Positions 23,452-51,271 of a DNA stretch of 64,000 bases are shown in pieces. The stretch lies in assembly GCA_902581045.1 (NCBI GenBank), contig CACHMU010000003.1, positions 1 through 64,000 of the forward strand. The letters run 5' to 3'. The position numbers were made by a program, and so were the translations under genes. Numbering within the stretch: position 1 is the stretch's first letter; the number at the start of each line of letters is the position of its first letter. Source of the stretch: an uncultured Fidelibacterota bacterium. GTDB lineage: Bacteria; Fidelibacterota; Marinisomatia; Marinisomatales; TCS55. Under the pieces are notes generated by a model that ran no database searches, was not told the origin of the DNA, and was given only the letters and a program-made list of their open reading frames with translations.

Positions 23452-24936
23452 TTAGTATTTTGCGGGCGCACCATTTTTAGGTGTTGAGTATACAATAAAC
23501 GATCTTATATCTTCATTAGATTTTCTTAAATCTTCTTTTCTGAGGTACATCATATGTCCGCTTCTATAACCTTTAAAAATCAACCTGTCTTTCATTCTAC
23601 CACTTGGGTCCAGACGCCACATAGTATATTTTGCATCAAAATATTTTGTTGCACCATCATAATAACCCGACTGTATCATTGTATGTAAATATGGGTTTTG
23701 AGCCATTGCTTGCCTAAGATTCTCACCAGTATTATTGTTTGATCTGTCCCAAGGCCTTACTGGACCAAACATATTATATTTTACATCTGTTTCAAATTTT
23801 AATACATTTTTATAATAGTAATTTATTGCCGGGGTGAAAGAATGAAGCCATGAGGTTAATTCAGAATTAAAATCAGGACGCTCCCCACCTTTGGTTTTAT
23901 CTAAACCCTTATAGCGTGAGTCTAAACGACCAACTGTGTAGCCTTCTTCCCTTAATAGTTCTTTCCAAAAAAATGATGTTGGAACATCTAGATTATAAGA
24001 AAGAATTGATTCTTTTGATATGCCAGAAAAGCGAGACATGGTTTCAGCCGCCTCATCTCTGGTTTCACTAGATACATACCCACCTTTTGCCAGGATAGGC
24101 ATTAATTGGTTTATAGAATAATCCTCAGATAGTTGTAAAACTTTAAGTAAATCTTGTGCCTGAAGATCTTTGGGTAATTTTTTATGATACCATGCAGCGG
24201 CAGTAAAATATGGTAATCTAAGCGAAGCGCCAAGAGGGCCAGCACGTCTACCAGCACCAGAATCAATTCCTAATTCTGTTGGAGAAACCAATATTACCCC
24301 ATTTAAATACATCCATTGTCGATTTTGTAATGCATGCGCGAGTCCAGAAACACGTGTTGTCCCATAGCTTTCCCCAATAAGATATTTTGGAGATTCCCAC
24401 CGATTTACACGCTGGATAAATGTATTGATCCATTCAGCTAAATATTTTATATCTGCATTTACGCCAAAAAAGGTCTCTTTTTTTACTTTTTTATCCAAAA
24501 TTCGTGAATATCCTGTGTTAACAGGATTGACGAATACAATATCAGCTATATCTAAAATGGAATATGGATTATTTTTAACACCGTATGGCTGAATTGGAAA
24601 CCCCTCATCATCAACATTAAGTATCATTGGGCCAGTGTATGCTAAGTGCATCCAGACGGAACCAGAGCCGGGGCCACCATTAAAGGAAATTAATATCGGA
24701 CGGCTAGCACGATTACTTATATTTTGACGCTCATAATAAGTATAGTGTACTGCTGCTATTGGCTTACCATCGTTGTCCCACACTGGTTGTGTTCCGGTTG
24801 TAGCACTATAATTAACCTTTTTGTTTTTAATTTGTGTACTATGAAATGTAACAATTGCAGTATCACCTGGAATAGATACAGATTGGGCTTTAATTATTCC
24901 TAATATGATAAAGATAAAAATAAATTTCTTTTTCAT
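23452..24936 (-). CDS. Secreted S10 family serine carboxypeptidase
   Basis: The 494 aa protein has a signal peptide (MKKKFIFIFIILGIIKAQS), so it acts in the periplasm or outside. The S10 features are the oxyanion region ILISFNGGPGSGSVWMH, the nucleophile in YLIGESYGTTR, the Asp in GYYDGATKYFDA and the His in GYRSGHMMYLRKED. S10 enzymes cut C-terminal residues from peptides and work best at acid pH. It follows the PilO/PilP-like gene by 22 bases on the same strand. It may be cotranscribed, but a functional link is not evident. Confidence 0.9.
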   Translation of the reverse strand: MKKKFIFIFIILGIIKAQSVSIPGDTAIVTFHSTQIKNKKVNYSATTGTQPVWDNDGKPIAAVHYTYYERQNISNRASRPILISFNGGPGSGSVWMHLAYTGPMILNVDDEGFPIQPYGVKNNPYSILDIADIVFVNPVNTGYSRILDKKVKKETFFGVNADIKYLAEWINTFIQRVNRWESPKYLIGESYGTTRVSGLAHALQNRQWMYLNGVILVSPTELGIDSGAGRRAGPLGASLRLPYFTAAAWYHKKLPKDLQAQDLLKVLQLSEDYSINQLMPILAKGGYVSSETRDEAAETMSRFSGISKESILSYNLDVPTSFFWKELLREEGYTVGRLDSRYKGLDKTKGGERPDFNSELTSWLHSFTPAINYYYKNVLKFETDVKYNMFGPVRPWDRSNNNTGENLRQAMAQNPYLHTMIQSGYYDGATKYFDAKYTMWRLDPSGRMKDRLIFKGYRSGHMMYLRKEDLRKSNEDIRSFIVYSTPKNGAPAKY

Positions 24937-24958: not shown

Positions 24959-25960
24959 TTAATTGTTTAAACGGGTGCTATATAGCTTTCCCTTATATAT
25001 AAATGTCATTTGATTATTTTTTCTTGCATTAGAGAAAGCTTTTTTAAAACCATCTAGAGAATATACAGATTGATTTTCATCAACTTCTACTTCCAAAACC
25101 AGACTTTTTCTTTTACCAGATAAAATAACACCCTCTTCATCAATTCTAGATATTATATAAGGGCCAATCTTTGATCCCAATGAATAGAGTTTATTATTAA
25201 TAATTGCACCCAGTGGTTTAGACAATATTGTTTGAGTTAGTAAATATTCTTTTTTAAATGACATCTGGCTCTCAAAATCTCTCTTCTTATTAGATAATCT
25301 TGATTCTGAAAAAATGTCATTTTTCCAATTAATTTGAGTTGATAAAATTTCATTAGGTATTTTAGGAACTGTATTTTTTATTTTTTCTATATTTATATTA
25401 TTATCGTAGATATTTTGATTTTGTAGCGATCTATATAAAAACATATTAAGGGATGCTTCCACTTGTCTTTTATTATTTGTAGACTTGATTTCCATTGCAT
25501 TTATGAGATAGCTCATTTCAGATAAAGCATTAATTAGTAAACCGATATTTAAAAAAGCCCCTCTTATCGAAAGCTCAACATTATACCTTTCTACCTTAAC
25601 GGTAAGACCTTGAATAGCATTTTGTGGGATATCAAGAGTGTTCTTTAATCTAGGAATTAGTTCATCTATCGAAACATTATATTTTTTGCAAATATCTTTA
25701 ATTTCATTTAATGCTAAAACAACATCGTCATCATTTTCGAAATAAGATGCTAGTGACGATATGTTTTTTATGTACCTATCATATTTATTTTGTAAATCCA
25801 ATATTGATTCATTATTTTTTTCAAAAAGTTTAATATTAGATTTTGTAAGATTAATTTTTTCTTTGGTTTCTTTTTGTAAATCTATAGAAACAAAGTTATA
25901 ATAACATATTCCAATGATTAATAATAACGTAGTAGCCATTTTATATGAATATATTTTCAT
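24959..25960 (-). CDS. PilO-like inner-membrane protein with C-terminal PilP/GspC-like domain
   Basis: The 333 aa protein has one N-terminal membrane helix (about residues 8-25), a coiled-coil stretch (28-70) and a periplasmic ferredoxin-like PilO-type fold. That fold covers about 75-180 (DICKKYNVSIDELIPRL, LSIRGAFLNIGLLINALSEM, INAMEIKS). Residues about 255-333 resemble the HR domain of PilP/GspC: LSKPLGAIINNKLYSLG, KIGPYIISRIDEEGVIL, then short strands. In type IV pili and type II secretion these parts are separate proteins joining the inner-membrane platform to the secretin. Here they seem fused. Its ATG overlaps the PilN-like stop as ATGA. Family assignment is by pattern only. Confidence 0.65.
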   Translation of the reverse strand: MKIYSYKMATTLLLIIGICYYNFVSIDLQKETKEKINLTKSNIKLFEKNNESILDLQNKYDRYIKNISSLASYFENDDDVVLALNEIKDICKKYNVSIDELIPRLKNTLDIPQNAIQGLTVKVERYNVELSIRGAFLNIGLLINALSEMSYLINAMEIKSTNNKRQVEASLNMFLYRSLQNQNIYDNNINIEKIKNTVPKIPNEILSTQINWKNDIFSESRLSNKKRDFESQMSFKKEYLLTQTILSKPLGAIINNKLYSLGSKIGPYIISRIDEEGVILSGKRKSLVLEVEVDENQSVYSLDGFKKAFSNARKNNQMTFIYKGKLYSTRLNN

Positions 25961-27462
25961 ATTGTAATATCTATAGTAAAAAGTATACTGCTTTGTTTAA
26001 TGGTTTGTTGATTAATTAAAACAGCATCTTTTATAAGATTTTGTTTTTTTATATCGCTTATCATTTGGTTTAATATTCGCCTTCCACTTGAGCCCGCAAC
26101 TCCAATTTTACCATAGAGTGATACAACAAAGTTTCCGCTTTCTTCTTTTTGATTGAGCGTTAATCGGCTAATACTAGTTGCATCAGGAACTAATGATGAA
26201 AGCAATTTTGTAATAAGAACACTTTTTTTTGAATAATGTTCATCAAAAGCTTTTGTTTTGACTAATTGCTCACCAACAATATTGCTTTTTATTAAAGATA
26301 ATTTTTTTTCTTGAATGGGAAGGAAATGATTTAGATCTCTTGATAATATATAATTATTTGAAGAGAAATATATAAGTGAAATTACTATACTAGTTTGGAT
26401 TATTACACCAACACCTGTTCTCCAAATAGATGAAGATGTTTTTGATGATATAGTTTGATAATCAAAATTTTGAACCTTATCTATGCTATCCTTTTCAACA
26501 ATAGTTTCTTTATTATCTAATTTTTCATTATCAGAGGACTTTTCACTTTCTTCAAAGGGAGTTTTCTCATTGATATGTGAATAGTCACTCTCGTGTTCAG
26601 AGTCTTCAATTTCAACTGATTCATCAGTGCTGATTCCAGATTCCTTTTTTAATTGATCTAGGCTTTCCTTCACAGATGGTTGAGCCTGCTCAATTAACTG
26701 ACGATGTTTGCTGATATCAATTTTTAAGCGAACCTCATCTATATCTTCTTCATATTTAATAAGCTTCGTTTTTTGCTTATCTAAATATTGACTGTATGTT
26801 TCATCTTTTTGTCCAGTTAGGGCAGCTTCTTCAATTATCAACTTTAATTTCGCATATGATCTTTTTGTTATGGTGACATCTGACCCTATAAGTGTTTTGG
26901 TGGCTTTGTTTAATTTTTTTTCAAATTCTTTTTTAGCTGCCTTTACTCGTCTTTTACTAGCCACAACCGAACAACGAATTTTCTTTTTTTGTAATTCATC
27001 AAAGTGATTTTCTATCGTACTGTAATGATCACACCATAATATATTATATGATTCAGATATTTTTGATTCAGGTTCAAGCGACATAATCAAATCATGATAT
27101 TTATTTATTTCGCGCTCTATTGCTACAAAATCATTTGCGGTTGAATTATCATTTATATTTAATAATAAATTGATGATGTTGGATTCACCATTTGATAGTT
27201 TGAGTTGAAACAACTGATATTTTTGTTCCTCTATGCTCTTTCTTATAGATTTAAGATATTCATTATAATCTTTATCTTTCTCTGCAAGGTCTTTACCCTT
27301 ATCTATAATTTTTTCAAGCTTTTTTATTGTGTCAGATACACTTTTAAAATCCTTTATAGAGCTAGTTGTTTTAGTATTAATATCTCTTTTGATTTTATAC
27401 TTATCAGCTAATTTCGAATGAACTGAATTAATATCAACTTTAGCTTTTTTATCTTTACTCAT
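25957..27462 (-). CDS. Coiled-coil protein with membrane anchor and PilN-like periplasmic domain
   Basis: The 501 aa protein has a long, charged, Lys/Glu-rich cytoplasmic part (1-340) with coiled-coil stretches and an acidic Ser/Glu linker (about 275-325). One membrane helix follows near 345-365 (TGVGVIIQTSIVISLIYF). The C-terminal region 370-501 resembles the PilN/GspL periplasmic domain: LLSSLVPDATSISRLTL, strand, GSSGRRILNQMISDIKK, then IKDAVLINQ and a final strand. Normal PilN has only a short cytoplasmic tail that binds PilM. No PilM is present here, and the upstream neighbour is a ParA-like ATPase with a one-base overlap. The long tail may bind that ATPase (inference). Confidence 0.65.
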   Translation of the reverse strand: MSKDKKAKVDINSVHSKLADKYKIKRDINTKTTSSIKDFKSVSDTIKKLEKIIDKGKDLAEKDKDYNEYLKSIRKSIEEQKYQLFQLKLSNGESNIINLLLNINDNSTANDFVAIEREINKYHDLIMSLEPESKISESYNILWCDHYSTIENHFDELQKKKIRCSVVASKRRVKAAKKEFEKKLNKATKTLIGSDVTITKRSYAKLKLIIEEAALTGQKDETYSQYLDKQKTKLIKYEEDIDEVRLKIDISKHRQLIEQAQPSVKESLDQLKKESGISTDESVEIEDSEHESDYSHINEKTPFEESEKSSDNEKLDNKETIVEKDSIDKVQNFDYQTISSKTSSSIWRTGVGVIIQTSIVISLIYFSSNNYILSRDLNHFLPIQEKKLSLIKSNIVGEQLVKTKAFDEHYSKKSVLITKLLSSLVPDATSISRLTLNQKEESGNFVVSLYGKIGVAGSSGRRILNQMISDIKKQNLIKDAVLINQQTIKQSSILFTIDITI

Positions 27463-28277
27463 TATTTTTTCTTTTTATTAACAAACCTTCCAACGGCTAA
27501 AGCAACTTTGTCATAACTTTGTGCAACCATACTACCCGGTGAATATTCGTGTATAGATTGACGGCTACTGTGTGACTTAGCTATGATATTAGAATATGGT
27601 ATAGTAGCATTAAAAACCCCAGAAGAAAACTTATCATCTGCAACCTTCTTCATCTCTCTTGACTGTGCGGAATTATTTACATATTTTGTTAATAGAATAG
27701 GCAGTGGTTTTATGCGTGGATTAAGTTTCTTTACATCATCAATTATTTTTTTGATAACTACTCGCGCATCCAAGGACCATTGATCTTCCGCACTTAATAT
27801 ATACCAATACCAATTACTTAGGAGTAAAGCATTTAATGTAAGCACGGATGCCTTTTGAGGGGGGGTGTCAAAAATAATATAATCAAATTGAGATTTAAGT
27901 TTTCTACTAAAAAAATGAATGAAAAGTCTAAAAATATTTGTATCTAATAATGATTTCATTTCAACTTCAGTACTATCCAACATAAGGGTAGATGCTAAAA
28001 GCTTGATATTGGGGTTTCTTGTAGAAACTATATAGTCAGATGCACTATCTCCAGATGATTTCAATAAATTAGTAATGTTTTTTCCGTTTTCGACAACATC
28101 TCTATTGTAGTTTTTCGCAAGTGTTGATGAAGAGTTTGCCTGAGCATCAAGATCACAAACAAGAACATTTTTCCGTTTATTAGCAAGACTCCATGCAAAA
28201 TTTATTGCCGTTGTTGATCTGCCAACACCACCTTTATTGCAAACGATAGTAATTATTTGTGTTTTTTGTTTGGCCAT
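27462..28277 (-). CDS. ParA/MinD-like ATPase with an altered P-loop
   Basis: The 271 aa protein is a deviant-Walker ATPase: NKGGVGRSTTAINFAWSLA near residue 14, switch region DLDAQANSSST, Walker B FDYIIFDTPPQKA, and C-terminal LTKYVNNSAQSREM. The signature Lys of KGG is present but the canonical P-loop Lys is Arg (codon AGA), which is unusual and may impair hydrolysis. Relatives position plasmids, chemoreceptors, cellulose synthases or Tad pili (CpaE). There is no ParB gene next to it. It sits between a pseudopilin-like gene and the PilN-like gene, so a role in placing or gating that envelope complex is more likely than DNA segregation. Confidence 0.82.
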   Translation of the reverse strand: MAKQKTQIITIVCNKGGVGRSTTAINFAWSLANKRKNVLVCDLDAQANSSSTLAKNYNRDVVENGKNITNLLKSSGDSASDYIVSTRNPNIKLLASTLMLDSTEVEMKSLLDTNIFRLFIHFFSRKLKSQFDYIIFDTPPQKASVLTLNALLLSNWYWYILSAEDQWSLDARVVIKKIIDDVKKLNPRIKPLPILLTKYVNNSAQSREMKKVADDKFSSGVFNATIPYSNIIAKSHSSRQSIHEYSPGSMVAQSYDKVALAVGRFVNKKKK

Positions 28278-28293
28278 TTGCTTTTTTTATAAC

Positions 28294-29043
28294 TCACTTA
28301 ATAATTGACACACCCTCAGATGTAGCTTCTAAACCATCTTTTGATGTAGAGAGTTTAGTGTTTAATCTTAAATCATTTCCTATTTCATATCTATTATTAT
28401 CATCTCCCCCATCCCACTTCATTTTTTCTTTGAAAAATCGGCTCTCTAAAAATACACTAATTTCATATGAGTTTGTTGTATTTAAGGACTTATAGGCAAT
28501 AACACATTCTATGGGTATTCCATTATTGTCAAATTGGCTTTGCTTAGTCTTAAGAGTATCATTATTTATTAAACTATTTCCATTCTCCCAGTTATCAAGA
28601 TTCTGTTTCCTTTGATTATTAGCTTGTGGCAAACTTTGTATTTCAGGTTTATTGGCATTTAGAAGCGAATGATATAATTTATTTTTTACATTTGTAACGT
28701 AAGTATTTAAATCAAAGTTTATTATAGTACTATAAATATGTTCAGCAGTTTTCAATGATTTATAATAATAGTAATTAAACGGTAGTGTCACGCTTGTATA
28801 TGCGGGGTCTCTAAATATATTCGTTAATAATTTCTCATTATATAGAAGTTCACTGATATTATTGTTTATTCCAGATTTAGGGTATTCACCATTAACTGTA
28901 TAATAAAACTGTATTGATTTTGATAAAGCACGGGCATTAAATATTCTTAATTGATCTCTTGATGCTTTCATAGCTTCAATGCTTACAGTGGACATGAAAA
29001 GTATTAATGAAAAGAAAATAACAAATTTTGTAAAATATTTCAT
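28294..29043 (-). CDS. Exported pseudopilin-like (GspG-like) protein
   Basis: The 249 aa protein has an N-terminal hydrophobic segment ending SIEA, perhaps a signal peptide or anchor. No type III prepilin G/E cleavage site is obvious. The body resembles type II secretion pseudopilins: ARALSKSIQFYYTVNGEYPKSG, then LTNIFRDPAYTSVTLPFNYYYYKS. The late part SRFFKEKMKWDGGDDNNRYEIGNDL recalls the C-terminal calcium-site region of GspG. It lies 16 bases upstream of the ParA-like gene. The role is unknown; the context suggests an extracytoplasmic component of the same complex. Confidence 0.6.
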   Translation of the reverse strand: MKYFTKFVIFFSLILFMSTVSIEAMKASRDQLRIFNARALSKSIQFYYTVNGEYPKSGINNNISELLYNEKLLTNIFRDPAYTSVTLPFNYYYYKSLKTAEHIYSTIINFDLNTYVTNVKNKLYHSLLNANKPEIQSLPQANNQRKQNLDNWENGNSLINNDTLKTKQSQFDNNGIPIECVIAYKSLNTTNSYEISVFLESRFFKEKMKWDGGDDNNRYEIGNDLRLNTKLSTSKDGLEATSEGVSIIK

Positions 29044-29063
29044 TAATAAGTAATCATGGTTTT

Positions 29064-29468
29064 TTATTGGATAATTTCTATCGAGCTTATTATGTTTTGA
29101 GTAAAATCATAACCAATGATAAATATTAAAAGTAAGGACAATACAATTAACAAAGTAAATGACTGCTTAAATATATCAGTAGAATTAATATTTAAATCAA
29201 CGGGAGCATCGGTATCTAAAGCTTGTGATGCAGTAGATTTTAGATTTTTAGGTTTAAGTATAGTGTCATAATCTGGCTTAACAGTCTTTTTGTTGGTGTC
29301 TCCAACTTCAGCAGGCTTCTTTATCATGCCATGTATATATAAATCACAAATTTTACATTCAGTATCATTGATAGTTAAACGCTCATTACAATTAGAACAA
29401 ATATAAGTGTTAGAGAATGGGTAGGCTGGGTCGCGAGGGTCAGATAGTCTATGAACGAGGTTTTTCAT
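29064..29468 (-). CDS. Zinc-ribbon protein with a C-terminal membrane helix
   Basis: The 134 aa protein has two CxxC pairs (CSNC at 24-27, CKIC at 38-41), forming a short zinc ribbon. A polar linker follows, then one membrane helix near 98-120 (FTLLIVLSLLLIFIIGY). This would put the zinc ribbon in the cytoplasm with a tail anchor. It is the first gene of the minus-strand pilus-like operon, 20 bases upstream of the pseudopilin-like gene. I recognise no named family. Confidence 0.6.
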   Translation of the reverse strand: MKNLVHRLSDPRDPAYPFSNTYICSNCNERLTINDTECKICDLYIHGMIKKPAEVGDTNKKTVKPDYDTILKPKNLKSTASQALDTDAPVDLNINSTDIFKQSFTLLIVLSLLLIFIIGYDFTQNIISSIEIIQ

Positions 29469-31825: not shown

Positions 31826-32311
31826 ATGAAAGTACAGATTTTTGTTACCGGGGGTACATTCGATAAAGAATATAATGAGATTTCAGGTGAGCTAAAATTC
31901 AATAATACTCACCTTGAAGAAATATTAGAATTAGGTAGATCACAAGTTAATACTTCTATTAAAACATTAATGATGAAGGATAGCCTTGAGATGACCGATA
32001 AAGATCGATCACTGATTTTGAGTGAATGTAAAAAGTCAGATGTTGATCAGGTAATTATAACACATGGAACTGACACAATGGTCGAAACCGCAAAATTTAT
32101 TGCTAAAGAAAAGTTAAATAAAACTGTAGTTTTAACAGGTGCAATGATACCAATCAATTTTGGCAGCTCTGATGGATTGTTTAATCTTGGTAGTGCACTA
32201 GGTTTTGTTCAAAGCTTGCAATATGGAGTGTATATTGCAATGCATGGTAGATGTTTTTCTTACAATAAGGTTAAAAAAAATCTACAATCAGGTATATTTG
32301 AATTAATATAG
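31826..32311 (+). CDS. Single-domain asparaginase-like protein
   Basis: The 161 aa protein corresponds to the N-terminal domain of bacterial L-asparaginases. It has IFVTGGTFDKEYNE (nucleophile Thr) and VIITHGTDTMVETAKFI (Thr-Asp pair), plus KTVVLTGAMIP. Full enzymes are about 330 aa with a second domain that completes the active site. Short one-domain homologues exist in many bacteria, so this need not be a truncation. Its activity is uncertain. It is coupled to the preceding hypothetical gene (3-base gap) and convergent with the M24 gene. Confidence 0.82.
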   Translation: MKVQIFVTGGTFDKEYNEISGELKFNNTHLEEILELGRSQVNTSIKTLMMKDSLEMTDKDRSLILSECKKSDVDQVIITHGTDTMVETAKFIAKEKLNKTVVLTGAMIPINFGSSDGLFNLGSALGFVQSLQYGVYIAMHGRCFSYNKVKKNLQSGIFELI

Positions 32312-42766: not shown

Positions 42767-44836
42767 ATGCGAAAATACACATTGGTATTTTTATCGCTAT
42801 TTCATATTTCAAGTGTATTTGGACAAGAAAAGCTTCACTTTGAATTTGGGATGGATTCATTAATAATGAATGTTGGTGAATCGAAAGAGATAACAATTAA
42901 ATTATTAGATGAAAATGGAAAACTTGCACAAAATCCATTTTATGTTTTTGGAGAAAGAAAAACATTATCAGTTTCTCCTCGAATTAGTGATTCCACAGGC
43001 ATTGCGAGTGTAACACTAAAAGCTCATAAGCCAGGGCGTTTGAGCTTAAGTACTCGAACTATTACAGTAAAACGGGAAGATCGTATTAGAGCAAACTTAA
43101 TTATAAACGTACCCTCGCCTCCTTTAGATCGTATTGTTTTTAACCAAAGGCCTTCTAAACTTTACTCAGGTACCTCAACACCTTTATCAGTTGTGGTTTT
43201 TGATGAAGCCGATCTAAAGCGATCAGAATTAAATGTTAAATTAACATCTAGTAATAAAAACGTAGCTGAATTTGATATTCTTGGAAATTTAGAAACAAAG
43301 AAGTCAGGCAGTACTACAATTTCTGCTAGAATTGAAAACTTAAAAGAATCATTTAAAATTAATGTGGTGAAAAATCCTGTACGCAAAGTTACACTATCTT
43401 TAGATAAAGAAGAAATTAGAACTGGTGACGTTATTGTTTTGAATGCAAAAACTTTAAATAAAAGTGGTCGTATTATTGATGATATACCAATCACCTATTC
43501 TTACCATGGTCAAGCTGATTATGGTGAATTTGCGCTCCCCGCAGCAGGGTTAGTAACGGAAGATGGAAGGTTTGTTGCTGAAACTGCGGGTTTGTATACG
43601 CTTATTGCTTCTAGTAATGGTTATTCAGCTCAGAAAACAATTAAGGTTATTCCAAGAGATGTGAAGAAACAAGTAAAGTTAGTGGGGCACGGATTAATTT
43701 CGAATGTATTAACAGGTGACTTGTGGGTTTGGGCTGGCGTGGATAAGCATGAAGGAAAAGATTTTGCTGTAACAGGTACTTGGAGTTCTAATGGTGAAGC
43801 TTATTTTTGGGATGTTACAGACCCTTCCAATATGACGATTATTGACACAATAACTGTTGATGCTCGAACAGTAAATGATGTAAAAATCTCAGAAGATGGT
43901 CGTGTAGGCGTGATTACAAGAGAAGGAGCCTCAAATAGAAAAAATGGATTTGTAATATTAGATGTAAGTGACCCATATAATGTTACGATATCAGCCGAAT
44001 ATAATGATGATATGACAGGAGGAGTCCATAATGTATTTATATATGAAAATCATGTTTATGCTGTAAATAATGGTCGTAAATATGATATCATCAATATTGA
44101 TGACCCTGCAAATCCTTTTCGTGTAGGTGTGTTTGAATTAGACACGCCTGGTCATAGTATTCATGATGTATGGATTGAAAATGGGATTGCTTATTCTTCA
44201 AATTGGAGTGATGGGGTTGTTGCGGTTGATATTGGAGGGGCAAAATTTGATGAAACAGATCGATCTAAATCACAGTTTAACCCATTGTTATCAAGAACAG
44301 GCCAAGGTAGTCCCTCAAATCCTGTAAAACTAGCTTCAATGGAAGATCCAACAGGACGCAATCATGCGGCTTTCCCATTTTTGAGTAAATCAACTGGGAA
44401 TTTTTATATTATAGCAGGTGATGAAAATTTTCCGTGGGGTGTTTTAGCTACTAAAGGTCAGCCATCAAATCCGCGAGGAGGTTACCATTTTTTGAATTTT
44501 ACTGATCCTGATAACCCAAAGGAAGAAGCTATTTATGAGGTACCAGAAGCTGGTTCTCATAACTTGTGGGTATTCGATGATGTGCTAATAGCTGGAAACT
44601 ATCAAGGAGGATTACGAGTTGTAGATATTTCCGGTGATCTCCTTGGAGATATTTACAAACAAGGCCGAGAAATTGGTCTTTATGTACCTTATCATAAAGA
44701 AGGTAAAATACCAAATGCACCATTTGTTTGGGGGGCACAACCTTATAAAGATTATATTTTCTTTGCTGATATGAATTCAGGATTGTATTGTATTCAATTG
44801 GTTGACGGCCAGCCATCAGGTAGGCGGATTCCGTGA
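42767..44836 (+). CDS. LVIVD-repeat propeller protein with Ig-like domains, copy A
   Basis: The 689 aa exported protein (signal MRKYTLVFLSLFHISSVFG) has an N-terminal half of Ig-like (Big2/invasin-type) strands (MNVGESKEITIKLLDENGK, GNLETKKSGSTTISARI, EIRTGDVIVLNAKT). The C-terminal half is a LVIVD-type beta-propeller (EAYFWDVTDPSNM, VILDVSDPYNVTI, YDIINIDDPANPFRV, LRVVDISGDLL). The core HNVFIYENHVYAVNNGRKYD and ASNRKNGF is shared by all four copies. A conserved HAAFPF and HNLWV may bind ligand. The function is unknown; surface exposure and adhesion or enzyme-like binding are possible. Copies A and C share the GRNHAAFPFLS and WGAQPYKDYIF forms. Confidence 0.85.
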   Translation: MRKYTLVFLSLFHISSVFGQEKLHFEFGMDSLIMNVGESKEITIKLLDENGKLAQNPFYVFGERKTLSVSPRISDSTGIASVTLKAHKPGRLSLSTRTITVKREDRIRANLIINVPSPPLDRIVFNQRPSKLYSGTSTPLSVVVFDEADLKRSELNVKLTSSNKNVAEFDILGNLETKKSGSTTISARIENLKESFKINVVKNPVRKVTLSLDKEEIRTGDVIVLNAKTLNKSGRIIDDIPITYSYHGQADYGEFALPAAGLVTEDGRFVAETAGLYTLIASSNGYSAQKTIKVIPRDVKKQVKLVGHGLISNVLTGDLWVWAGVDKHEGKDFAVTGTWSSNGEAYFWDVTDPSNMTIIDTITVDARTVNDVKISEDGRVGVITREGASNRKNGFVILDVSDPYNVTISAEYNDDMTGGVHNVFIYENHVYAVNNGRKYDIINIDDPANPFRVGVFELDTPGHSIHDVWIENGIAYSSNWSDGVVAVDIGGAKFDETDRSKSQFNPLLSRTGQGSPSNPVKLASMEDPTGRNHAAFPFLSKSTGNFYIIAGDENFPWGVLATKGQPSNPRGGYHFLNFTDPDNPKEEAIYEVPEAGSHNLWVFDDVLIAGNYQGGLRVVDISGDLLGDIYKQGREIGLYVPYHKEGKIPNAPFVWGAQPYKDYIFFADMNSGLYCIQLVDGQPSGRRIP

Positions 44837-44881
44837 TAGAGCAAACGTTAAAATTGTACTTTTAAGAATTTGGAGATTAAA

Positions 44882-46999
44882 ATGAAAAAAATATATACAA
44901 TAGTATTTTTATTATCATTTACTGGGTTATTTGGGCAACCACCAAGGTCCCTCAATACGGATCTTGAATTTGTTTTTGAACATCCATTGTTACTTCACCG
45001 TCTAGACTCTCTTTCACTGAATATTGGTGAAGAAGCTTCAGTATTGATTCGACTCGTTGATTTAAAAGGGAATCAAGTAAAAACCACATTTATGATTCGA
45101 GGACAAAGAAAAGCAATTGTTGCTGAGCCACGAAGAAGTGACACAACTGGAGTCGCAAAAGTAACAATAAAAGCACTTGATTCTGGAGAATTAAATCTTA
45201 GAGCGATGGCTATTGGGAAAAAAGGAAGAACCGTTGGTGCATTGAAAATTAATGTACCTTTAATTCCATTAGAAAAAATAACTTTCGTTAATCCGATCCA
45301 AAAAGTTTTTGTTGGAACATCCGTAAAATATTCTGTTAAAATTTTTGACAAAGCAAAAAGAATCAGAAAGAATATGAATGTTGTTTTTACATCAAGCAAT
45401 AATAACGTAGCTGAATTTGATAATTTTGGCAATTTGACGATTAATAAACCAGGTAAAACAACTATTACCGCTACAGTAGATGATATAGTAGAATCCTTAG
45501 TTGTATCTGCCAAAAAAAACCCAGCAAGAAAAATAAAATTTGATATAAGTGAAAATCAAGTAAGAACTGGCGATGTAATAAAATTAAATGCTACTGTTTT
45601 AGATGGTCGGAATAAAGTTCTTGAAAATATTCCTATAGTTTTTTCTTTTTCAGGTAAAGCTATTAATCAAACTGATAATTTTATCAATAATCGATCAACT
45701 GAAAGTATTGGTTTACCAGCATCCGGATTAATTACACAAAATGGTAAATTTGTTGCTGAAACAGCTGGGATTTATACATTAACCGCCCAATCAAGCGGAT
45801 TTTCAGCATCTAAAAAAGTCAAAGTTGTTCCTAGAAACGTACGTAAGAGGCTTGAAGTTGTAGGACACGGTACTATTTCAAATGTGAATACTTCAGATCT
45901 ATGGGTTTGGCCGGGTGTTGGAAAACATAAGGGAAAAGATTTTGCTGTAACTGGTACACACAGTGCGGATGGTGAGGCGTATTTTTGGGATATTAGTGAC
46001 CCAGCTAATATGGCAATAATTGATACAATAAAGGTTGATGCACGTACTGTAAATGATGTAAAAATTTCTGAAGATGGTAGAGTTGGTGTTATATCAAGAG
46101 AAGGGGCTTCAAATCGTAAAAATGGATTAGTCATACTAGATGTTACTGATCCATTCAATGTATCAATTATTAATGAATATAATGATGATTTAACTGGAGG
46201 AGTTCATAATGTATTTATTTATGAAGATCATATTTATGCATTAAGCGCTGGAAGGCGATATGATATAATTAATATAAGTGATCCTGCGAATCCATTTCGT
46301 GTGGGGTCTTATGAATTGAATACCCCTGGACACAGTATTCATGATGTCTGGGTAGAAAATGGAATTGCTTATTCATCGAATTGGAGTGATGGTGTTCATG
46401 TAGTTGATGTGGGTGGAATAAAGCAGAGCGAGAAGTCAAGAGCTAAAAACCAATTTAATCCGTTTTTAGCATTAGCAGGCAAAGGGAGTCCAGGAAATCC
46501 AATAAAATTAGGTAGCAAAGAGGATCCAAATGGACATAACCATGCAGCATTTCCATTCCAAAGTGAATCAACAAATAAATTTTATATTATTACAGGTGAT
46601 GAGTGGGCAAAGGCTGTTCCAGGCTCACCAGAAAGAATATTCCAAGGAGGATTCCATTTTCTTGATTTTACAGATATAAAAAATCCTGTTGAAACCGCAA
46701 TTTATCAGGTGCCAGAAGTTGGATCGCATAACCATTGGGTTAAAGGTGATACATTATTTGCAGGTTATTATTATGGAGGAATACGAGTTGTAGATATTTC
46801 AGGAGAACTAATGGGTAATTTATATGCACAAGGTAGAGAAATTGCCTTCTTCAAAGGTGTAGATCCTGATGGTACAACGGCTAATCAAACCAATGTATGG
46901 GGAGTGATTCCATATAAGGGATTAATTTATTTTGCTGATCTCAATAATGGTTTATGGGCTGTTAGACTAGTAGATAATGAGCCATTAGGAACAAATTAA
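44882..46999 (+). CDS. LVIVD-repeat propeller protein with Ig-like domains, copy B
   Basis: The 705 aa paralogue has signal MKKIYTIVFLLSFTGLFG, Ig-like strands (LNIGEEASVLIRLVDLKGN and GNLTINKPGKTTITATV) and the same propeller core (EAYFWDISDPANM, VILDVTDPFNVSI). It belongs with copy D by its NGHNHAAFPF segment and the ending PYKGLIYFADLNNGLWAVRLVDNE. The ORF track starts with a TTG at 44870. The ATG at 44882 follows GGAG by six bases and is the better start. It lies 45 bases after copy A. Confidence 0.85.
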   Translation: MKKIYTIVFLLSFTGLFGQPPRSLNTDLEFVFEHPLLLHRLDSLSLNIGEEASVLIRLVDLKGNQVKTTFMIRGQRKAIVAEPRRSDTTGVAKVTIKALDSGELNLRAMAIGKKGRTVGALKINVPLIPLEKITFVNPIQKVFVGTSVKYSVKIFDKAKRIRKNMNVVFTSSNNNVAEFDNFGNLTINKPGKTTITATVDDIVESLVVSAKKNPARKIKFDISENQVRTGDVIKLNATVLDGRNKVLENIPIVFSFSGKAINQTDNFINNRSTESIGLPASGLITQNGKFVAETAGIYTLTAQSSGFSASKKVKVVPRNVRKRLEVVGHGTISNVNTSDLWVWPGVGKHKGKDFAVTGTHSADGEAYFWDISDPANMAIIDTIKVDARTVNDVKISEDGRVGVISREGASNRKNGLVILDVTDPFNVSIINEYNDDLTGGVHNVFIYEDHIYALSAGRRYDIINISDPANPFRVGSYELNTPGHSIHDVWVENGIAYSSNWSDGVHVVDVGGIKQSEKSRAKNQFNPFLALAGKGSPGNPIKLGSKEDPNGHNHAAFPFQSESTNKFYIITGDEWAKAVPGSPERIFQGGFHFLDFTDIKNPVETAIYQVPEVGSHNHWVKGDTLFAGYYYGGIRVVDISGELMGNLYAQGREIAFFKGVDPDGTTANQTNVWGVIPYKGLIYFADLNNGLWAVRLVDNEPLGTN

Positions 47000-47133
47000 A
47001 ATGAAAAAATTAATTAAATTCCCAATGAATATTTACATTGACTATGCTTGTATTATATGAGATAGTCTAAAGGTGTAGTTTATTTTATCAGATTTAATTA
47101 ATTTTTTCATTAAGCATGAATAAGAGGAGATTT

Positions 47134-49209
47134 ATGAATAAAAGAAAATTATTATTTTTACCATTTTTAATTTTTGTAATGCTCAATGGCCAAGATGGTA
47201 ATAAAGAAAAGTTTCATTTTCAATTTGAAATGGATTCATTGGAGATGAATGTAGGTGAGTCTAAACAAATAAAAATTAAGCTATTAGATAAAAATGGGGA
47301 ATTAGCTCAAAACCCTTTTTTTATTTCCGGGGCAAGAAAATCGTTATCGGTTTCACCAAGAATAAGTGATTCAACAGGCGTTGCTATTGTCACTGTAAAA
47401 GCACATAAACCAGGCCGCTTAAGATTAGGGACTAGATCAATAACTGTCAAGCGAGATGAGCGAATAAGGGATTTTATTATTGTTAATGTTCCATATCCAC
47501 CTCTTGATAAAATAGTATTTAATAAAACTCCTAATAAGCTATATGCAGGAACGGTAACAGAATTCCTAGTTGAAGTTTTTGATGTTTCAGGTTTGACACG
47601 AGAAGATATAGATGTAGAGTTAATATCTAGCAAACAGTCAGTTGCTGAGTTTGATGCTTTTGGTAACTTAGAAACAAAAAAACCTGGTAGAATAACTATT
47701 ACTGCAAAAGCTCAAAATGTAAAAGAAACATTTAAAGTTAGTGTTGTAAAAAATCCAACACGCAGTGTTGTTATGAATCCAGCTGAAACTGAAATACGCA
47801 CTGGAGATGTTCTTCATTTAAATGGCCAAGCTTTAGATAAAAGAAAGTCTATAATAAAGGATGCGCCTTTAACATATACATATTCAGGCCAGGCCAATTA
47901 TGGAGAATTTGGTCTACCAGCATCTGGATTAGTTACGAATGATGGAAGATTTGTTGCAGAAACATCAGGACTTTATACTTTAACGGCATCATCAGGCGGA
48001 TATTCAACACAAACTACCATAAATGTTTTACCTAGAGATGTAAAGAAAAAAGTTGAATTGGTAGGTCATGGATTAATTTCAGATGTTCTTACAAGTGATT
48101 TGTGGATATGGCCGGGAATTGGTAAACATAAGGGTAAAGATTTTGCTGTTACTGGCACATGGGGTTCTAATGGAGAAGCATACTTTTGGGATGTATCTAA
48201 CCCAGATAGTATGATAATTATTGATACAGTCACTGTAGATGCGCGAACAGTAAATGATGTTAAGATTTCAGAAGATGGAAGGATTGGTGTAATTACACGT
48301 GAAGGAGCATCAAATAGAAAAAATGGGTTTGTTGTATTAGATGTCTCAGACCCATATAATGTTACAATTTCAGCTGAATTCAATGATGATATGACAGGTG
48401 GCGTTCATAATGTGTTTATTTATGACAATCATGTTTATGCTGTGAATAATGGTAGAAAATATGACATCATAAATGTTGATGATCCTAAAAATCCATTTAG
48501 AGTTGGTGTTTTTGAACTAGATACCCCTGGTCATAGTATCCATGATGTTTGGATTGAAGATGGAATAGCGTATTCATCAAATTGGAGTGATGGAGTTGTT
48601 GCAGTTGATATTGGAGGTACAAAGTTTGATGAATCTGATCGTTCAAAATCTCAATATAATCCATTACTAATCAAGGCAGGTGAAGGCAGTCCATCATCAC
48701 CAAAAAAATTAGCAGAAATGGGTGATCCAACTGGACGTAATCATGCTGCATTCCCTTTTTTAAGTCAATCAACCAATCAATTTTATATAATTAGTGGTGA
48801 TGAAATATTTCCTTGGGGTGTATTGGCAACACAGGGTAAGCCTTCAAATCCTAGAGGAGGGTTTCACTTTTTAAATTTTTCTGACCCTGATAATCCAAGA
48901 GAAGATGCAATATATCAGGTTCCTGAAGCAGGTTCACATAATCTATGGGTTCATGGTGATACGCTTATTGCAGGTTTTTATCAAGGAGGACTACGTATTG
49001 TAGATATATCAGGAGAATTATTAGGTGATATATATAATCAGGGAAGGGAGATTGGAGTTTATCAATCATCTCATAAAGAAGGTAAAATACCTAATGCACC
49101 AATGGTATGGGGTGCACAGCCTTATAAAGATTATATTTTTATAGCTGATATGAATTCAGGTTTATACTGTATTCAACTTGTTGATGAAAATAAATCAGAT
49201 ACGCCTTAG
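47134..49209 (+). CDS. LVIVD-repeat propeller protein with Ig-like domains, copy C
   Basis: The 691 aa paralogue (signal MNKRKLLFLPFLIFVMLNG) is closest to copy A: same MDSLEMNVGESKQIKIKLLDKNGE opening, GRNHAAFPFLSQS segment and WGAQPYKDYIFIADMNSGLYCIQLVDE ending. The ORF track begins at 47116. The ATG at 47134 has GAGGAG five bases upstream and a clean signal peptide, so it is chosen. A gap of 134 bases separates it from copy B, longer than the other gaps and possibly holding a second promoter. Confidence 0.84.
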   Translation: MNKRKLLFLPFLIFVMLNGQDGNKEKFHFQFEMDSLEMNVGESKQIKIKLLDKNGELAQNPFFISGARKSLSVSPRISDSTGVAIVTVKAHKPGRLRLGTRSITVKRDERIRDFIIVNVPYPPLDKIVFNKTPNKLYAGTVTEFLVEVFDVSGLTREDIDVELISSKQSVAEFDAFGNLETKKPGRITITAKAQNVKETFKVSVVKNPTRSVVMNPAETEIRTGDVLHLNGQALDKRKSIIKDAPLTYTYSGQANYGEFGLPASGLVTNDGRFVAETSGLYTLTASSGGYSTQTTINVLPRDVKKKVELVGHGLISDVLTSDLWIWPGIGKHKGKDFAVTGTWGSNGEAYFWDVSNPDSMIIIDTVTVDARTVNDVKISEDGRIGVITREGASNRKNGFVVLDVSDPYNVTISAEFNDDMTGGVHNVFIYDNHVYAVNNGRKYDIINVDDPKNPFRVGVFELDTPGHSIHDVWIEDGIAYSSNWSDGVVAVDIGGTKFDESDRSKSQYNPLLIKAGEGSPSSPKKLAEMGDPTGRNHAAFPFLSQSTNQFYIISGDEIFPWGVLATQGKPSNPRGGFHFLNFSDPDNPREDAIYQVPEAGSHNLWVHGDTLIAGFYQGGLRIVDISGELLGDIYNQGREIGVYQSSHKEGKIPNAPMVWGAQPYKDYIFIADMNSGLYCIQLVDENKSDTP

Positions 49210-49225
49210 AAAAATGGAGATTAAA

Positions 49226-51271
49226 ATGAAAAAGTTTTTTTTGACAATATATTTACTATTATTTAGTTTTGTTTATACACAAGAAACAATAGAAAATAAA
49301 TTTGAATTTGTTTTTGAACCAGACTCACTTTTTTTACGTGTTGGAGAAACTGGATCAGTCACAATTAAATTGGTTAATTCTAATGGTGAATTAGCAAATA
49401 ACCCATTTTATATTTATGGTCGTCCTAGAAGGTCCCTAGAGTCAAGTCCAAGGATTAGTGATTCCACAGGCATTGCGACCGTAAGTATAAAACCATATAA
49501 ACCAGGTAAATTAACTTTAAGTGTTAGAAGTATTTCGCAGAAGAGAGAGGATAGAGTTTATGGTGGGATGACCGTTCAAGTTCCTTTTCCCCCATTGGAG
49601 AGGATAGTATTTGATAACCCACAAAAAAAATTATATCTAGGAACTTCTCTTCAATATAAGACAACAGTCTTTGATCAAGCTAATTTATTAAGAGATGACG
49701 CTAAAGTAGAATTATCAACTTCTAATAATAGTATTGCTGAATTTGATAATTACGGAAACTTAAAAGCGAAAAAAGCTGGTAAAGTAAAAGTTGTTGCTAC
49801 AGCAGAAAATATTTCTGAATCATTTGAAATAAATATAGTCAAAAATCCGGTGAGAAAAATTTCACTTGAAACAGAAAAAAATATAATTCGAACAGGAGAT
49901 GTATTACAATTTTCAGCGAAAACCTTAGATAGATCAGGTCGCCATATTAAAGATATACCTATTGTTTATTCATACAATGGCAAAGCCGAATATGGAATAG
50001 GGCTTCCCGCAGCAGCATTAATTAATTCTTCAGGTAAATTTGTTGCTGAGACTCCTGGTGTATTTACAATAACTGCACAATCAGGAGGGTTTTCTGCTAG
50101 GAAAACAATAAAAGTTACCCCTAGGAATGTTAAAAAGCGTGTAAGAGTGGTTGGGCATGGAACTGTTTCTGATGTCAATACTTCAGATCTATGGGTATGG
50201 CCAGGTGTAGGAAAACATAAGGGTAAAGATTTTGCGGCAACTGGTACCTGGGGAGCTAATGGTGAGGCTTATTTTTGGGATGTTACAGATCCTTCTAAAA
50301 TGGCAATTATTGATACAATTACCGTTGATGCAAGAACTGTAAACGATGTTAAGGTTTCAGAAGATGGAAGAGTAGCTGTTATTACTCGTGAAGGTGCATC
50401 CAATCGTAAAAATGGATTTGTAGTTTTGGATATTACTGATCCTTTTAATGTAAAAATAACAGCTGAGTTTAATGATGATATGACCGGAGGTGTTCATAAT
50501 GTTTTTATCTATGATAATCATGTCTATGCTGTAAATAATGGAAGGAAATATGATATCATTAATATTGAGGATCCATATAATCCTTTTCGTGTTGGTCGTT
50601 ATGAATTAGATACTCCCGGACATGGAGTCCATGATGTATGGATAGAAGATGGTATTGCATATTCTTCAAATTGGGCAGATGGTGTGCATGCAGTTGATGT
50701 AGGTGGAATAAAATTTAATGAAAAGAACAGATCCAAGATAAAATATAATCCATTACTTGCAATGGCTGGCCAAGGTAGCCCAGGTAACCCAGTAAAACTT
50801 GCAGGAATGGCTGATCCTAATGGACATAATCATGCAGCGTTCCCTTTTATTAGCCAATCAACTGACAAGTTTTATATTATTGCCGGTGATGAATGGGGTA
50901 ATCAATTTGGTATGGCAGGGGGTTTTCATTTTCTTGATTTCACTGATCCAAAAAATCCGAAAGAAAGTGCTGTGTATCAAGTTCCTGAAGCTGGTTCACA
51001 TAATCACTGGGTTCATGGAGATACATTGCTCGCTTCATATTATCAAGGTGGTTTAAGAGTGGTTGATATTTCTGGTGAATTAATGGGTGATATTTATTCG
51101 CAAGGCAGAGAAATAGCATTCTTCCTTTCAAGTGATCCTGATGGTTTTATGGCTAATCGTCCAAATGTTTGGGGTACAATGCCATATAAAGGTTTAATTT
51201 ATTTTTCAGATATGAATAATGGTCTCTGGGCCATAAAGTTAGAAGATGATAATAGATTTGGGACAAATTAA
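49226..51271 (+). CDS. LVIVD-repeat propeller protein with Ig-like domains, copy D
   Basis: The 681 aa paralogue (signal MKKFFLTIYLLLFSFVYTQ) groups with copy B by NGHNHAAFPF and MPYKGLIYFSDMNNGLWAIKLED. Ig-like strands lead into the shared propeller core VDARTVNDVKVSEDGRVAV. The ORF track starts at 49178, inside copy C. The ATG at 49226 sits six bases after GGAG in the context TGGAGATTAAAATGAAAAA, the same context as copy B. It abuts the YncE-like gene with no spacer. Confidence 0.84.
   Translation: MKKFFLTIYLLLFSFVYTQETIENKFEFVFEPDSLFLRVGETGSVTIKLVNSNGELANNPFYIYGRPRRSLESSPRISDSTGIATVSIKPYKPGKLTLSVRSISQKREDRVYGGMTVQVPFPPLERIVFDNPQKKLYLGTSLQYKTTVFDQANLLRDDAKVELSTSNNSIAEFDNYGNLKAKKAGKVKVVATAENISESFEINIVKNPVRKISLETEKNIIRTGDVLQFSAKTLDRSGRHIKDIPIVYSYNGKAEYGIGLPAAALINSSGKFVAETPGVFTITAQSGGFSARKTIKVTPRNVKKRVRVVGHGTVSDVNTSDLWVWPGVGKHKGKDFAATGTWGANGEAYFWDVTDPSKMAIIDTITVDARTVNDVKVSEDGRVAVITREGASNRKNGFVVLDITDPFNVKITAEFNDDMTGGVHNVFIYDNHVYAVNNGRKYDIINIEDPYNPFRVGRYELDTPGHGVHDVWIEDGIAYSSNWADGVHAVDVGGIKFNEKNRSKIKYNPLLAMAGQGSPGNPVKLAGMADPNGHNHAAFPFISQSTDKFYIIAGDEWGNQFGMAGGFHFLDFTDPKNPKESAVYQVPEAGSHNHWVHGDTLLASYYQGGLRVVDISGELMGDIYSQGREIAFFLSSDPDGFMANRPNVWGTMPYKGLIYFSDMNNGLWAIKLEDDNRFGTN

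Follow-up and report, generated by a model that had tools for sequence, protein, structure and literature searches.

We analysed a stretch of 64,000 nucleotides from an uncultured Fidelibacterota (Marinimicrobia) bacterium (hereafter the window), which corresponds to contig CACHMU010000003.1 of assembly GCA_902581045.1 (contig C3 of genome G000 in our set), whereby the genome amounts to 943 kb and is 58% complete. Between positions 24959 and 29468 the minus strand carries five open reading frames (ORFs) in the order fam4-fam3-ParA-PilN-PilOP. These encode a zinc-ribbon protein of 134 amino acids (aa) (fam4; 29064..29468), a 249-aa protein with a weak likeness to pilins and pseudopilins (fam3; 28294..29043), a ParA/Soj-type ATPase of 271 aa (27462..28277), a coiled-coil-PilN fusion of 501 aa (25957..27462), and a PilO-PilP fusion of 333 aa (24959..25960). 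The first two intergenic gaps measure 20 bp (fam4/fam3) and 16 bp (fam3/ParA), followed by overlaps of TAATG (ParA/PilN) and ATGA (PilN/PilO), so that the five coupled genes described in a first-pass annotation of this DNA were recovered as such. Homologues of all five occur in the same order at further loci (L047-L053), identifying them as real genes, and the dN/dS ratios range from about 0.02 to 0.17 (L103 versus L106, for genes with unsaturated, measurable dS). The operon genes are under purifying selection and do not represent a relic.

Single-sequence scans against Pfam and NCBIfam did not make any PilN, PilO or PilP similarity visible in the window proteins. Profile–profile comparison with complete operons of relatives that resemble type IV pilus and type II secretion system (T2SS) operons yielded scores of 99.6% for PilO, 99.5% for PilP and, for the window PilN against a PilM-PilN fusion, 97.4%. 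An order-wide search matched the PilO and PilP halves of the window fusion to two separate genes in G125 and G129 (E values of 6e-22 and 2e-13 for the G125 genes); an 804-aa protein matches, at its end, the C-terminal region of the coiled-coil protein (4e-10). The G125 operon (L056) encodes a helix-turn-helix (HTH)-PilM-PilN protein, PilO, PilP, a Secretin (2e-42), a receiver, T2SSE (9e-128), T2SSF (6e-55), and an N_methyl pilin (1e-10), whereby its PilP gives a weak T2SSB match. The profile of the PilMN fusions in turn matches solved PilM (5e-17) and the relatives' PilO profile matches solved PilO (0.003). Because the halves link to ordinary operons and because of the profile–profile scores, we assign the window proteins to PilN and PilO-PilP, and this demonstrates, at the level of predicted proteins, that homologues of PilN, PilO, and PilP are encoded together in the window operon. 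The first-pass annotation had proposed such proteins, with PilO and PilP fused, and the profile similarity that it had made the touchstone of its proposal was found for all three. In the PilO-PilP fusion, a transmembrane (TM) segment (residues 8-26) is followed by PilO up to about residue 180 and a PilP/GspC-HR-like domain at about 193-333. The PilN protein starts with a lysine-rich peptide (MSKDKKAK), continues with a mostly helical cytoplasmic part of about 340 residues, and crosses the membrane at residues 346-364 in front of a periplasmic PilN domain, whereas a PilM domain was not found in it. The very long coiled coil noted earlier is therefore present, but it forms the N terminus (residues ~1-340, before the TM segment) and not a tail. 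As a side observation, a C-terminal motif (F..AR....QxxFxY/F.GKLYST/NT) is common to the window PilOP (residues 306-333, where it reads F..AR....QxxFxYKGKLYST) and one ordinary PilP (L056:9924-10478); a motif of the F..AR...GKLYST type did not occur in other PilPs.

The ATPase matches AAA_31 (4.8e-31) and its best solved matches are ParA/Soj proteins. It consists of a single Soj-type domain, in which no receiver domain was found, and its P loop (KGGVGRST) keeps the signature lysine while the Walker A lysine is replaced by arginine, as in all members of its subfamily (10/10). By fold and deviant Walker A signature lysine, the protein is thus predicted to belong to the ParA/Soj branch, so that the earlier label "ParA/MinD-like" holds for ParA but not for MinD. 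The members of the subfamily share 49–79% identity and occur in 10 of the 245 genomes of the phylum, and nearly all named relatives of the window ParA come from Marinimicrobia assemblies. Outside the subfamily, no full-length ParA of the order exceeds 34% identity to it. In P-loop NTPases in general, a change of the Walker A lysine is compatible with slow or absent turnover. Since the arginine is invariant here, the ATPase may turn over slowly and act on its partner more as a tether than as a motor.

The first gene product, fam4, shows an invariant CxxC...CxxC arrangement (C24xxC27...C38xxC41) and one C-terminal TM segment (residues 104-122), in agreement with the zinc-ribbon membrane protein named before. 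It is present in all eight loci that are long enough, with nearly invariant first 30 residues, and library scans returned no family match despite this strong conservation. For fam3, an N-terminal TM segment running into a helix of about 50 residues and C-terminal strands are predicted. The AlphaFold2 model is poor (pLDDT 50) and Foldseek returned no significant match (E>1), whereby pilins and pseudopilins made up 6 of the 13 matches. Neither a recognisable class III prepilin leader (GFTLIE) nor an N_methyl match was found in fam3, which is therefore pilin-like at best; of the earlier description as a GspG-like exported protein, the pilin-like shape weakly stands.

The engine of a pilus is missing from the window. 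Local profiles detected no T2SSE, T2SSF, secretin or PilM in its 64 kb, with the secretin of the same genome as a positive control, which confirms that PilM, the assembly ATPase, PilC, and the secretin are absent nearby. For the platform protein T2SSF this absence applies to the window, as no genome-wide search was made for it. T2SSE and the prepilin peptidase (PF01478) are absent from six of the seven carrier genomes (G000, G055, G077, G079, G080, G081), all as far as these incomplete genomes reach, and the window's own genome gives a T2SSE match below cut-off only. Based on the stated completeness values and assuming independence, incompleteness alone would leave a gene undetected in all six with a probability of about 6e-5. 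An unlinked secretin of about 700 aa is present in 7/7 carriers of the family, including the own genome (G000:C6, L086:8549-10654, with a C-terminal extension of about 290 aa), as well as in most of the family. Secretins of this type are conserved across the family with no other pilus genes beside them. The neighborhood survey suggested by the first-pass annotation thus gave co-occurrence in seven relatives' loci, but as distant pilus genes of the own genome only one secretin and the sub-cut-off T2SSE match, and the sequenced part of the own genome revealed no complete operon of which the five genes would be ordinary members. Among the components of type 4 filaments, a small core of pilin, prepilin peptidase, extension ATPase, and platform protein has been set apart from PilMNOP, which may mainly stabilise the rest (PMC10191384). 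Because the operon does not provide this core, it would, judged by gene content, not constitute a type 4 filament machine.

The same five-gene order was found in G055, G115, G077, G078, G079, G080, and G081, which together with the window makes eight loci, and the carriers span several genera of one Marinimicrobia family. The G115 contig (G115:C20, L048/L107) is 99.3% identical to the G055 contig over the module and therefore probably represents the G055 population binned elsewhere. A further copy lies in a contig of a "Bacteriovoracaceae" metagenome-assembled genome (L105), likely as binning contamination. In seven of the eight loci the genes for fam5 (two TM helices and a short coil) and fam6 (a TM segment and immunoglobulin (Ig)-like domains) come after PilOP, and on contigs that extend further they are succeeded by those for fam11 and fam12, both predicted outer-membrane proteins. 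At L107/L048 an S10 peptidase gene comes after these four genes, whereas in the window the S10-type peptidase (23452..24936, minus strand) is encoded directly downstream of the PilO-PilP gene; the window therefore lacks the fam5-fam6-fam11-fam12 block. The peptidase is probably a neighbour and not a component of the system. At the corresponding site, G070 and G063 carry other genes between the asparaginase and S10 genes. The G056 contig ends in fam7, so that absence of the module from this genome is uncertain.

In two genomes of another family (G041 and G042; INTERMEDIATE), a ParA of the same subfamily is the first gene product of an operon that continues with a protein of about 2585 aa and PilO. 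The large protein (L055:1127-8884 and L054:648-8399, both minus strand) consists of 22 tandem repeats of about 65 residues, an internal winged HTH, PilM, and PilN. The G041 operon then proceeds with a PilP-like protein, secretin, receiver, T2SSE, T2SSF, and pilin. This operon is an evolutionary intermediate, in which the ParA stands with a still complete pilus engine, and it follows that the ParA-PilN link is older than the loss of the engine, or has moved between both contexts. About 2585 aa is exceptionally long for a PilM/GspL homologue, the operon being otherwise that of an ordinary pilus or T2SS.

Compared with known systems, the operon resembles the alignment subcomplex of the type IVa pilus (PilM-PilN-PilO-PilP) and of the T2SS (GspL-GspM-GspC) in that homologues of PilN, PilO, and PilP/GspC-HR are encoded in the same order. 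The relatives' operons are of this kind, with PilM fused to PilN (as in PulL/GspL), PilO, PilP, secretin, T2SSE, T2SSF, and pilin. The window operon differs by the lack of PilM, motor, platform, and secretin, the fusion of PilO with PilP, the cytoplasmic coiled coil of PilN, and the upstream ParA. The Tad (type IVc) pilus likewise encodes an ATPase of the ParA/MinD family (TadZ/CpaE) with a pilus-type envelope machine. However, it comprises the TadA motor, the TadB/C platform, and a prepilin peptidase, none of which accompanies the single Soj-type ParA and PilNOP of the window. Regarding the Tad set (TadA, TadB/C, RcpA), the window gave no T2SSE, T2SSF or secretin match, and no search was made for RcpC, an alignment protein without notable similarity to PilN or PilO (PMC12307814). 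In ParA-cargo systems such as ParA-ParB, McdA-McdB, PomZ-PomX, and PpfA-TlpT, which position cargo on the nucleoid, a ParA is similarly encoded beside a coiled-coil protein with a lysine-rich N terminus (PMC10241942, PMC7993993). Here, the putative partner would instead sit in the membrane as part of a trans-envelope complex, and arginine takes the place of the Walker A lysine. In other Marinimicrobia operons an AAA_22 ATPase, which we take to be ExeA-like, is encoded beside PilM-PilN (L093:9497-10324) or fused N-terminally to it (L101:4959-7862); the presence of an ATPase gene at PilMN recalls the ExeA/GspA-like ATPases, but the fold is unlike that of the window ParA. In the papers that were searched, no ParA-PilNOP system is described, and the first-pass annotation likewise knew of none.

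Taken together, we propose, with a probability of roughly one in two, that the operon encodes a PilN-PilO-PilP frame which derives from a PilMN-type pilus/T2SS operon, has lost its filament engine, and is spatially controlled by a dedicated ParA. The origin of the frame from a pilus/T2SS alignment complex appears well supported by the homologies and the intermediate, in line with the stripped or repurposed alignment complex suggested before. As to its function, we infer positioning or tethering of an envelope-spanning assembly by ParA, which would physically partner PilN. ATP-bound ParA would bind the nucleoid in a Soj-like manner, and PilN, anchored in the membrane, could extend its lysine-rich N terminus and long coiled coil towards it and contact it as ParB, PomX, and McdB do with their ATPases. 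PilN and PilO would cross the inner membrane, and the HR domain of PilP might couple to an outer-membrane partner, either an unlinked secretin or, in genomes that have them, the outer-membrane proteins encoded downstream, whereby the whole assembly would be positioned or tethered. Positively charged N-terminal peptides of modular partners are known to engage or activate ParA/MinD-type ATPases (PMC7993993, PMC10241942), and every ParA-linked PilN with a clear start carries a lysine-rich N-terminal peptide, in both architectures, whereas the compared ParA-less PilMN proteins do not.

Several points weigh against this proposal. The lysine-rich N terminus is short and of modest net charge, and 12–13% of the proteins in the set have a net charge of at least +3 in their first 10 residues, so that it is a hint only. 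The exchange of the Walker A lysine for arginine could mean little ATP turnover. The coiled coil of the window PilN shows no detectable homology to that of the giant G041 protein with its 22 repeats. The carrier genomes are incomplete, and G078 holds a separate T2SSE/secretin operon, with T2SSE and prepilin peptidase present. The role usually ascribed to pilus alignment proteins is limited to stabilising and guiding a filament machine. In these ocean-widespread, uncultured bacteria, strong selection maintains PilNOP in the absence of any linked motor, prepilin peptidase or secretin; the operon includes a ParA, and relatives preserve an intermediate. If the proposal is true, PilNOP would be an independent, movable envelope scaffold. 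The system thereby offers a clear test of whether a ParA can position trans-envelope assemblies via a coiled coil on an inner-membrane protein. A more far-reaching reading, which we consider rather unlikely, is a new trans-envelope machine for secretion, motility or surface organisation without a pilus ATPase, made up of the ParA-PilN-PilO/PilP frame, the zinc-ribbon and pilin-like proteins, and, in most relatives, a possibly proton-driven inner-membrane fam5/fam6 unit with two outer-membrane proteins.

It might also be that the operon encodes a reduced secretion or endopilus machine, in which fam3 forms a short filament or plug in a PilNOP ring and works with the unlinked secretin, ParA only places the complex, and an unrecognised ATPase or the proton-motive force drives it. 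A pilin-like fam3 at every locus of sufficient length and the secretin in all seven carriers fit this idea, as PilP normally binds a secretin. However, assembly ATPase and prepilin peptidase are missing in six of these carriers, fam3 lacks a prepilin leader, and the secretin also occurs in the operon-less relatives G070 and G071, so that we consider such a machine rather unlikely. Somewhat less probable still is that the operon and the fam5-fam6-fam11-fam12 block constitute one proton-driven trans-envelope machine, with fam5/fam6 as a GldL/GldM-like motor, PilNOP as the frame, and fam11/fam12 as outer-membrane parts. The adjacency is fixed in all loci save the window, the set of 25 genomes (out of 130) with fam5 is identical to that with fam6, fam5 has an invariant E55 F56 in its second TM helix, and fam6 is modelled as a long helix followed by beta domains, although at low confidence (pLDDT 63). 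Yet comparison with two real GldL/GldM pairs gave hhalign scores of 44% and 0.2%, a hairpin shuffle test gave p of 0.12–0.30, there was no Pfam or PDB match for fam5/fam6, and for fam6 Foldseek returned only generic Ig chains; by none of these approaches was GldL/GldM identity shown, which is left as a possibility only. Moreover, family f13 has the fam5-fam6 pair but no ParA-PilNOP with it, and G056 encodes the pair at a different locus, so that the two blocks are separable, and neither fam5 nor fam6 was found in the own genome (58% complete). In f13 (L090, L088, L089, L096, L099, L100) a TPR protein and a cadherin/Ig-repeat protein are encoded ahead of the fam5-fam6-fam11-fam12 block, and at L090 a protein with a Por_Secre_tail match (type IX secretion sorting) lies nearby. 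The phylum is without a recognisable GldM except for Bacteroidota-type gldKLM(N) contigs in two Marinimicrobia bins (G079:C43/L135, G166:C9/L134), which are likely binning contamination.

Improbable, in our view, is a nucleoid–envelope anchor, by which ParA-PilN would tie the chromosome or nucleoid to the envelope with no surface function. A Soj-type ParA encoded with a membrane protein bearing a long cytoplasmic coiled coil, and no surface motor, would suit it, but it leaves the pilin-like protein, the PilP domain, and the outer-membrane genes unexplained, and most Marinimicrobia lack the module and carry another ParA. A functionless, decaying remnant of a pilus operon, for which the small genomes and an operon stripped of motor, platform, and secretin might speak, is contradicted by the purifying selection and by the gene order kept intact in several genera, and can practically be dismissed.

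Apart from the coding sequences, an Rfam scan of the window gave no match, a promoter and terminator scan at the operon start yielded nothing above chance, and a repeat search returned AT-rich, chance-like matches only. On the plus strand, four consecutive ORFs of about 690–709 aa occupy positions 42767-51271, of which the first and last (the pair that was scanned) show weak bacterial Ig-like (Big) domain matches, and a tandem duplication of surface proteins is possible. The asparaginase gene (31826-32311) is short and encodes 161 aa with the N-terminal domain alone, a length that is kept in relatives.

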